This document shows positions 5,700-46,797 of a stretch of 64,000 bases of DNA, one piece after another. Source of the stretch: an uncultured Bacteroidales bacterium. Its GTDB lineage: Bacteria > Bacteroidota > Bacteroidia > Bacteroidales > FEN-979. Made by a program: the position numbers and the translations under genes. Positions within the stretch are counted from its first letter, which is position 1, and each line of letters starts with the position of its first letter. The notes beneath the pieces were generated by a model that was given only the letters and a program-made list of their open reading frames with translations, was not told where the DNA came from and did no database searches. Location of the stretch: positions 1 to 64,000 of the forward strand of contig CAIKNA010000285.1 in assembly GCA_903828645.1 (NCBI GenBank), in the 5' to 3' direction.

Positions 5700-5828
5700 G
5701 GCGAAAAGGTGAAAAGGTGAAATGGCGAAAAGGTGAAAAGGTGAACAGGTGAAAAGGTTAACAGGTGAACAGGTGAACAGGTGACAAGGTGACAAGGTGA
5801 CAAGGTGGAGAGGTAAAAAAGGTAAAAA
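5700..5828. repeat. Degenerate 8-bp tandem array (aaaaggtg / aaatggcg / acaaggtg)
   Basis: About sixteen consecutive 8-bp words fill the gap between rarA and the kdsA promoter. Variants include aaaaggtg, aaatggcg, aacaggtg and acaaggtg. No coding potential is visible. Related 8-bp words recur at 11.6 kb and 13.9 kb. Confidence 0.85.
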
Positions 5829-11603: not shown

Positions 11604-11630
11604 CGTCAGGAAGGGTTAGAGGGTTAATTA

Positions 11631-11702
11631 GCGAAATAGCGAGGTAGCGAGGTAGCGAGGTAGCGAGGTAGCGAAATGGCGAAATGGCGAAATGGCGAAA
11701 AT
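11631..11702. repeat. 8-bp tandem array (gcgaggta x4, gcgaaatg x3 and variants)
   Basis: Nine consecutive 8-bp words lie between the symporter and gmhB: gcgaaata, four gcgaggta, three gcgaaatg and gcgaaaat. The gcgaaatg word also occurs in the 5.7-kb array. Confidence 0.9.
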
Positions 11703-13526: not shown

Positions 13527-13599
13527 TGTATATGGTCTATTTGATAATTGTTTAAATAAAAAACACGCTATTTCCCTTTTCCAAAACGCTACCCCCACG

Positions 13600-13634
13600 C
13601 GTCATTCGTCACTCGTCATTCGTCACTCGTCACT
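13600..13634. repeat. Heptamer array (cgtcatt / cgtcact)
   Basis: Alternating 7-bp words cgtcatt and cgtcact repeat about five times between gmhA and the nitroreductase remnant. They are reverse-strand relatives of the attgacg word seen near 740 and 46,750. Confidence 0.85.
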
Positions 13635-17742: not shown

Positions 17743-17750
17743 TATTTTTG
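17743..17750 (+). promoter_or_regulatory. ffs: SRP RNA promoter -7 box TATTTTTG
   Basis: The box ends 4 nt before the first paired base of the SRP RNA at 17755, the spacing expected between a -7 element and a stable-RNA 5' end. Confidence 0.75.
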
Positions 17751-17754
17751 CAGT

Positions 17755-17851
17755 GGGTAAGTCTTATACGACCAGCTCCCAACTAACCCCCCCAGGTTCG
17801 GAAGAAAGCAAGGGTACGATGGTTGAGCGGTGCGATATAAGGGGCTTACCC
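17755..17851 (+). ncRNA. ffs: Signal recognition particle RNA (small bacterial 4.5S type)
   Basis: The 97-nt segment has the conserved SRP hairpin core: ccaggttcggaagaaagcaa compares with the E. coli core around ccggaaggaagca, including the GGAA tetraloop that binds Ffh. The termini pair as gggtaag/cttaccc and then ttata/tataa, closing the usual long rod. A TATTTTTG box precedes it and a run of six T follows, so both ends are well defined. It guides membrane-protein ribosomes to FtsY together with Ffh. Confidence 0.92.
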
Positions 17852-17858
17852 ATTTTTT

Positions 17859-18023
17859 ATTTACGATTTACGAATTACGATTTACGATTTGGTAAATCGT
17901 AAACGTGTCGGGAAATCCGGGTTGTTTCTTTTCCAGGTTTGATGAAAGTCCTATCTTTGAACCAAATAATCCGACAACGCGTCAATTTTATAAATCGTAA
18001 ATCGTAATTCGTAAATCGTAAAT
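17859..18023. repeat. Perfect 32-bp inverted repeat bracketing a promoter
   Basis: The arm at 17859-17890 is built of 7-bp words (atttacg, aattacg). The arm at 17992-18023 is its exact reverse complement over all 32 positions. The 101-bp interior holds a smaller palindrome (arms about 17881-17889 and 17895-17903, sharing the left arm's end) and the TATCTTTG box at 17952-17959. The right arm includes the first two bases of the yciO-type start codon. No ORF lies inside. Confidence 0.9.
17952..17959 (+). promoter_or_regulatory. Promoter -7 box TATCTTTG inside the inverted-repeat bracket
   Basis: A perfect TAnnTTTG match lies about 62 nt before the ATG at 18022. Transcripts from it would contain only the right arm of the inverted repeat. 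Confidence 0.65.
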
Positions 18024-18639
18024 GTTACTAAAGATCCATCCCGACAACCCCAGCGAACGCCAGCTGAAGATCGTGGTCGATTGTCTCCGGCGCGGAGGGG
18101 TTATAATCTATCCTTCCGATACGGTATATGGTTTGGGGTGCGATATTACGCAGATCAAAGCGGTGGAGCGGGTGGCGCAGATCAAGGGGATCCGACGCGA
18201 AAAGGCCAATTTTTCATTCGTGTGCAGCGACCTCAGCCAGCTTTCGGGCTACTCCAAACCCATTCCTAACCACACGTACAAAGTTATGCGTCATGCGCTT
18301 CCGGGCCCATTCACCTTCATCCTGAACGCCACGAGCGAAGTTCCCCATTTTTTCCAGAGCAAAAAGAAGACGGTCGGCATCCGTATTCCCGATCATAAGG
18401 TCCCGATCCAGATCGTGGAATTGCTCGGCAACCCCATCATGACCACTTCCATCCATTCGGAGGATGAGATCATGGATTACCTGACCGACCCGGAGCTGAT
18501 CCACGAAAAGTTCCTCAAGCTGGTCGATATCGTCATTGATTCAGGCCATTGCGGGAACATCCCCTCCACGGTTGTTGACTGTACGGGTGATGAAATGATC
18601 GTGACCAGGCCGGGAAAAGGCGACATAATGCAATATTAG
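18022..18639 (+). CDS. yciO: YciO/Sua5/YrdC-family protein (threonylcarbamoyl-AMP synthase-like)
   Basis: The 205-residue single-domain protein has the YrdC fold motifs GGVIIYPSDTVYGLGCD (26-42), PGPFTFIL, KKTVGIRIPDH and STVVDCTGDE near the C-terminus. The segment ANFSFVCSDLSQLSGYS fits the YciO subgroup (NFTLMCRDLSELS in E. coli) better than classical TsaC. The family binds ATP, threonine and bicarbonate or RNA in t6A synthesis, and YciO's own role is less certain. The start codon overlaps the right arm of a perfect inverted repeat. tsaE, another t6A-pathway gene, lies at 43.3 kb. Confidence 0.88.
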   Translation: MLLKIHPDNPSERQLKIVVDCLRRGGVIIYPSDTVYGLGCDITQIKAVERVAQIKGIRREKANFSFVCSDLSQLSGYSKPIPNHTYKVMRHALPGPFTFILNATSEVPHFFQSKKKTVGIRIPDHKVPIQIVELLGNPIMTTSIHSEDEIMDYLTDPELIHEKFLKLVDIVIDSGHCGNIPSTVVDCTGDEMIVTRPGKGDIMQY

Positions 18640-18702
18640 CACCTGGTTAACAGCCATTTATAAAATTTTTAATTTTTAATTTTTAATTTTTAATTATTGT
18701 CG

Positions 18703-23036: not shown

Positions 23037-23984
23037 ATGCATCAACCTCCTGAAAATCAAAAAGAAAAAGAATATCATTCCAGGATCAGGAAAGTATTGT
23101 CATACATCCAGGAAAATCTTTCAGAAGAACTGCCACTGACAACACTCTCTGAACTAGCCTGTTTCTCGCCATTTCATTTTCAAAAAATATTTTCCCGGTA
23201 TGTTGGTGAATCCCCGAAACAATACATGATGCGGCTGCGTATGGAAAGAATTGCCCACTACCTGGTGCTCTACCCGGCATTGAGCATCGGGGATGCAGCT
23301 TTTCAAAGTGGTTTTTCTTCTTCATCCACCTTTATCCGGGCATTTAAAAAATATTATGGGACGACTCCGGAAGGCTTCAGAAATCTTTCATTGGATGAAA
23401 TCAGCAAGATTGGCACATCGAAACCTCGTAAAGGTCAATCCTATGAACTCCAATCATCCGAATTTTGGAGTCTGAACCTGATGAATGAAGACGTTACAGA
23501 TTTGACTCCTGAAATGAGAATCGGCGTTAAGATGATTCGTTCTTTGAATGTTGCTTTTATCGACTCCCACCTGGGTGATGAAGATGCCATCCCCAATACT
23601 TTCAAAGCGCTGACCCGTTGGGCTGCACCGAGGGACCTGATTACCCCTGACACACAGTTTATCGGTATTTTCCTTGACATGCCCTTTTTCACTGAATACG
23701 ATAAATGCAGGTACAGGTCATGCATCAGTTTACCCGAAGGTTTTATTGCACCAAAAGATATTGGTTCCGCTATAATCCCAGGTGGTAAATATGCCTGTTA
23801 CCCGATGAAAGGATCAATCCGGAGCGTTTTTAAAAGCCTGATAGCCTTCGGTCATGGATGGCTGGAACAATCAGGCTACCAGATTGCTGAGATTACCGGG
23901 TTTGAATTGTACCCGGAGAATCCGGCATCAAGACCCTATGAAAGCATTCAACGACAGATATTCATCCCTGTCAAACCTGCATGA
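23037..23984 (+). CDS. AraC-family regulator with GyrI-like effector domain
   Basis: The 315-residue protein begins with two AraC helix-turn-helix motifs (about residues 20-115), including LSELACFSPFHFQKIFSRYV and GDAAFQSGFSSSSTFIRAF followed by KKYYGTTPEGFR. The C-terminal half (from about 160) is a GyrI-like/SOUL-type small-molecule domain: GGKYACYPMKGS and the terminal YESIQRQIFIPVKP. The order is that of MarA/Rob-type multidrug regulators of the Rob subgroup. Targets are unknown, and the adjacent methyltransferase and membrane-protein genes are possible ones. Confidence 0.9.
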   Translation: MHQPPENQKEKEYHSRIRKVLSYIQENLSEELPLTTLSELACFSPFHFQKIFSRYVGESPKQYMMRLRMERIAHYLVLYPALSIGDAAFQSGFSSSSTFIRAFKKYYGTTPEGFRNLSLDEISKIGTSKPRKGQSYELQSSEFWSLNLMNEDVTDLTPEMRIGVKMIRSLNVAFIDSHLGDEDAIPNTFKALTRWAAPRDLITPDTQFIGIFLDMPFFTEYDKCRYRSCISLPEGFIAPKDIGSAIIPGGKYACYPMKGSIRSVFKSLIAFGHGWLEQSGYQIAEITGFELYPENPASRPYESIQRQIFIPVKPA

Positions 23985-23985
23985 T

Positions 23986-24014
23986 GATTTACGATTTTCG
24001 ATTTTCGATTTTTG
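23986..24014. repeat. Heptamer-type array (gatttac / gattttc)
   Basis: Four degenerate 7-bp words follow the AraC-type stop. They belong to the same atttacg family as the arrays at 17.9 and 46.7 kb. Confidence 0.65.
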
Positions 24015-46726: not shown

Positions 46727-46797
46727 GATTTACGATTGACGATTGACGATTTACGATTGACGATTTACGATTGACGATTGACGATTGACGATTTTTA
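46727..46797. repeat. Heptamer array (gattgac / gatttac, about 10 copies)
   Basis: Words gatttac and gattgac alternate without spacers between the HD gene and lpxD. It is the longest array of the attgacg/atttacg family in this window. Confidence 0.9.

Follow-up and report, generated by a model that had tools for sequence, protein, structure and literature searches.

The intervening sequence (IVS) of the Coxiella burnetii 23S rRNA gene carries terminal inverted repeats, an S23p open reading frame (ORF), and heptameric repeats before the ATG of this ORF, and it is excised by RNase III; what S23p does and how IVSs arose have been open questions for more than 25 years (PMC4990558). A different heptamer, TAACTGA, is repeated in Beggiatoaceae, Cyanobacteria, and some Bacteroidetes, in most cases in a single orientation and directly ahead of start codons (MacGregor 2015, PMC4679880).

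Here we describe an inverted repeat between a small SRP RNA gene and a yciO-type gene in an uncultured Bacteroidales bacterium (source genome G000, 5.1 Mb in 409 contigs). It lies in the window, which is the whole 64,000-nucleotide stretch of DNA analyzed (G000:C285:1-64000). This element and those compared with it resemble the Coxiella IVS in their terminal inverted repeats, a stem of about 28 to 32 bp, the presence of S23p in full-length members, the heptameric repeats next to the start of S23p, and their sporadic presence at fixed sites. Unlike IVSs, which are inserted in a 23S rRNA helix (9, 25, or 45), they are found between genes (SRP-yciO for the window element, and sdhA-sdhB), and their arms are species-specific heptamer arrays. 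The window element has the complementary ends of an IVS, its 32-bp perfect arms folding into a long RNA stem; the S23p ORF carried by many, but not all, IVSs is absent from it and present in a sister element of G000. TAACTGA repeats are likewise intergenic 7-base tandem repeats; in contrast, the unit here is CGTAAAT, and the arrays also face stop codons and form matched outward pairs around S23p genes. Repeats of the REP/BIME and MITE type (GTAG/CGTC families, PMC3733652) share with these elements an intergenic, palindromic, dispersed, and RNA stem-forming character, but they differ from them in that the arms here are 7-base tandem arrays and the window interior is unique in its genome.

Results

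Architecture of the inverted repeat

The preliminary description of this DNA had reported a 32-bp perfect inverted repeat reaching the yciO start codon, and sequence comparison together with a repeat search bore this out. The two arms (Table 1) are exact reverse complements around a 101-bp interior, the left arm reading ATTTACGATTTACGAATTACGATTTACGATTT, and the right arm overlaps yciO by two bases, the A and T of the ATG start codon. Imperfect pairing extends the arms to 39 nt (17859-17897 with 17985-18023, 92%). Since the SRP RNA ends at 17855 and its T-run at 17858, the inverted repeat exactly fills the gap between the SRP RNA and yciO. Each arm is a (CGTAAAT)n run with one variant unit, CGTAATT, at a mirrored position, as found by TRF and by inspection of the sequence; a two-unit heptamer pattern matched six times in the 64-kb window, against 0.01 matches expected from shuffles. 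The ORF list contained no ORF in the interior, and a search of the source genome returned no other match of note to it. A multicopy MITE was rejected as an identity for the interior, the 101-bp sequence having no second copy in the genome. An internal promoter had also been proposed: its -7-like box is present, but a well-spaced -33 element is not, which leaves the promoter reading weak.

Table 1 Features of the SRP RNA-yciO region (window coordinates)
Feature	Position	Strand	Evidence
Bacteroidales small SRP RNA gene, immediately upstream	17748..17855	+	Rfam RF04183, 85.8 bits (gathering 55.2)
T6 run at SRP RNA 3' end	17853..17858	+	Sequence; abuts yciO ATG in G007, G016, G009 (empty site)
Left heptamer array = left arm; CGTAAAT reads leftward to SRP gene end	17859..17890	-	Sequence, repeats, TRF
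Partial inverted copy GGTAAATCGTAAACG, folds back on left array	17889..17905	+	Repeat search
Interior, 101 bp, unique in genome, no ORF	17891..17991		Genome search, ORF list
TATCTTTG, matches the TAnnTTTG -7 box of Bacteroidetes; -33 element at suitable spacing absent	17952..17959	+	Sequence
Right heptamer array = right arm; CGTAAAT reads into yciO start codon	17992..18023	+	Sequence, repeats, TRF
yciO-type gene (Sua5/YciO/YrdC family)	18022..18639	+	PF01300, E 9e-48; ORF

A polar heptamer family in the source genome

Searching the 5.1 Mb of G000 with the 32-mer arm gave 335 overlapping matches at up to three mismatches, against none for a reversed control; as an exact 32-mer, the arm occurs only in the two window copies. 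Array statistics were based on gene calls from a simple in-house hexamer method and cover 1.36 Mb of the 5.1 Mb. These stretches were picked for contigs holding arrays, some of them for an array near an ATG, a sampling that may overstate the number of arrays at starts but leaves the 3' versus 5' polarity at stops unaffected. Intergenic tandem arrays of period 7 numbered 121 in the 1.36 Mb (period 8, n = 3; period 6, n = 0), and 81 of the 121 belonged to the CGTAAAT heptamer.

Informative arrays were those with one gene boundary no more than 20 nt away and the other at a distance of 60 nt or more. Of the 27 such arrays in G000, 26 had the 3' end of CGTAAAT toward the near gene (p = 4e-7), 13 of them at starts and 13 at stops, and 10 of 11 informative CGTCATT arrays in G003 and G007, where this heptamer is common, showed the same polarity. 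When arrays of this outward polarity stand at both edges of a gap, an inverted repeat is therefore formed, and all four same-gap pairs in G000 pointed outward. These pairs were found among 84 arrays; most arrays are single, so that elements may not be the only source of arrays. Across all G000 intergenic gaps, left/right matching was only modestly above that of permuted pairs, and a strong general matching of the two sides was rejected on this ground. In each genome, the arrays follow the prevailing heptamer of that genome.

Other arrays of period 7 or 8 lie in the window at 46727-46793, 23986-24012, 18664-18695, 13596-13634, 5703-5828, and 11629-11700, with the units GATTGAC, GATTTTC, AATTTTT, CACTCGT, GAAAAGGT, and TAGCGAAA. 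At L033 (5194-5691), an rbfA-like gene is placed between two inward-pointing CGTAAAT arrays (inverted-flank score 60.5).

S23p genes between heptamer arrays

Genes of the S23p family (PF05635), the four-helix-bundle proteins of 23S rRNA intervening sequences, were scored as bracketed when inverted arms within 160 nt on each side reached a score of at least 17. Taking the best-scoring PF05635 gene of each genome in the bacterial family of the source genome (n = 30), it was observed that 26 of the 30 were bracketed, compared with 5 of 400 random genes, all from G000 (Fisher p = 1e-32). The arms had a period of 7 or 8 in most cases and a wide variety of units, and the inward-reading strand of the left arm was G-rich in all 26 bracketed genes. 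Phylum-wide, 7 of 30 PF05635 genes passed the same cut-off, with more decayed arms; a phylum scan revealed outward matched pairs elsewhere as well.

G000 itself contains an S23p gene (C80:22735-23028) between outward arrays at C80:22645-22691 and 23112-23157, and the heptamer of these arrays is that of the window, CGTAAAT. The encoded protein matches PF05635 with 62.6 bits and also matches the solved 2rld chain. In G165, outward ATTTACG-type arrays 420 bp apart abut both neighboring genes and enclose a frame that is presumably S23p-like and has a TAA in frame close to its start. A search of the accessible literature found no paper linking S23p genes to heptamer brackets, except for the Coxiella IVS. 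Three heptamer-bracketed gaps of G437 (L233 2853-2985, L234 2834-2951, and L238 2231-2343) share a palindromic core resembling GCTGACGC...GCGTCAGC, the third copy being diverged; they apparently represent a multicopy ORF-less element whose ends are of this type.

The SRP-yciO gap in relatives

The relatives named here are mostly metagenome-assembled genomes (MAGs) from lakes, groundwater, and other environments. Their SRP-yciO gaps hold ATTTACG arms in G012, G013, G018, G005, and G010, GAATATC-type arms in G014, G017, G001, G008, and G015 as well as at a second locus inside G000, AATGACG arms in G003, and ATTTACC arms in G019. The gap is 17 nt in G002 and empty in G016, G007, and G009 (L068, L071, and L074), where the SRP T-run directly abuts the yciO ATG and yciO may thus be expressed by read-through from the SRP gene. 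Filled and empty states of the site both occur among relatives, and the empty ones could be deletions. In other Bacteroidales outside the family, most gaps after a recognized SRP RNA are short and array-free.

The two arms of an SRP-yciO gap matched better within than across species (17.2 vs 10.2; 0 of 20,000 permutations). Within heptamer classes the effect was smaller (combined p = 0.02), weak for ATTTACG (144/720 permutations) and stronger for GAATATC (5/720). Uniform phylogenetic inheritance of the arms was rejected, since the yciO tree, which has few well-supported branches, shows a scattered distribution of heptamer classes and empty gaps (9 changes against a shuffled mean of 8.8).

The second SRP-yciO locus of G000 (L089, C364:53490-54104) encodes a protein 86% identical, and the bin for this genome is probably a mixture of two related organisms. 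A record titled as an Alphaproteobacteria MAG (L098, SACF01000058.1) contains a locus of the source Bacteroidales genus and is probably mislabeled. CCGAAAT-type heptamers just 5' of the yciO start were seen in Mucilaginibacter and other Bacteroidetes (L148, L152, L155, L169, and L171).

Three states of the sdhA-sdhB gap

Between sdhA and sdhB, a full S23p element was found in G005, G010, and G036, in G007 and G025 as judged from their gap ends, and in further cases. The same gap holds ORF-less arrays of ATTTACG in G003, G011, and G012 and of the GAATATC type in G000, G001, G008, and G018, and it is short and array-free in G023. Of all the data, those on this gap argue most strongly that ORF-less arrays and S23p elements share one type of location; they show co-location and not interconversion. 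In G015 (L290), the sdhA-sdhB gap contains a run of more than 15 GAATAAA heptamers.

Discussion

We propose, with a probability of roughly 0.6, that the segment 17859-18021 belongs, as a short copy without an ORF, to a class of intergenic elements that have matched outward heptamer ends and, in full-length members, an S23p gene. Its matched outward arrays abut both neighboring genes, as in the class; since an S23p ORF is missing from it and nothing recognizably related to its interior occurs elsewhere in the genome, its membership rests on ends, polarity, and setting. When transcription reads past the SRP terminator, the arms would pair into a stem of more than 30 bp, which RNase III would cut; handling of the transcript stem as in rRNA intervening sequences is the most likely course by analogy. 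The insert would then be tolerated between genes, uncoupling the SRP RNA end from yciO, whose transcription may be supplied in part by the internal promoter-like box. Identity of the arms may be kept by 7-nt slippage and by copying between arms through the hairpin. We infer that such elements are mobile and that S23p has a role in them.

Bacteroides invertible promoters have inverted repeats around a promoter. The window locus shares this geometry around its promoter-like box, and phase variation as at Bacteroides surface loci had been suggested for it, a suggestion that comparison with relatives does not support and that we consider very improbable. All interior pairs with recognizable homology had the same orientation, forward scores exceeding reverse scores in G010/G005 (25 vs 6), G012/G013 (19 vs 6), G012/G018 (16 vs 7.5), and G017/G001 (16.5 vs 9.5), and no inverted interior was found in this comparison, which was made between species and not from reads. 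Several relatives have no insert, the arms belong to a repeat family common to many gene boundaries rather than being a dedicated target of site-specific recombination, and yciO is a housekeeping-type gene (PF01300). The preliminary description had alternatively proposed a read-through block, the folding part of which held up: the SRP-to-yciO transcript is predicted to form a stem of more than 30 bp over the start codon (-104.7 kcal/mol, z = -5.1), whereas the transcript from the internal box is predicted to be unstructured. An insulator under selection, in which the read-through stem hides the yciO start and the internal promoter gives an open leader, would also agree with the within-species matching of arms and with TAnnTTTG boxes on the plus strand in 6 of 19 gaps (2.1 expected). 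However, covering of the ATG is not conserved: the right arm of GAATATC-type relatives ends about 20 to 45 nt before it and leaves the start codon uncovered, the three empty sites have no gap whatever, and similar arrays stand in the sdhA-sdhB gap and at many other gene edges. Selection for insulation is accordingly improbable, and hiding of the start codon may be a side effect at the window locus.

An unlikely explanation is that the heptamer arrays are a slippage-prone microsatellite of the lineage at gene edges, unrelated to S23p, and that both edges of this gap gained an array of the usual polarity. This would fit the predominance of single arrays, their adherence to the prevailing heptamer of each genome, the modest left/right matching in G000, and the existence of TAACTGA heptamers beside start codons without elements (MacGregor 2015, PMC4679880). 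It sits poorly with the variant unit that the window arms share at mirrored positions, in the only exact copies within 5.1 Mb, and with the bracketing of PF05635 genes at 26/30 against 5/400, and it leaves the outward polarity at stop codons unexplained.

Membership of the window locus in an S23p-associated element class, as preferred here, could be part of a wider picture, which we offer tentatively and hold to be somewhat doubtful: S23p genes with heptamer ends may be widespread small mobile elements in the gene gaps of Bacteroidota, spawning ORF-less copies and rewriting their arms jointly, perhaps by S23p-assisted copying from arm to arm, with the rRNA IVS as a special case. The many intergenic heptamer-bracketed S23p loci, in filled, ORF-less, and empty states among close relatives, make mobility, arm maintenance, and RNA processing directly testable outside rRNA. 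They would also help to explain why 7-base repeats are so common at the edges of genes in these genomes.
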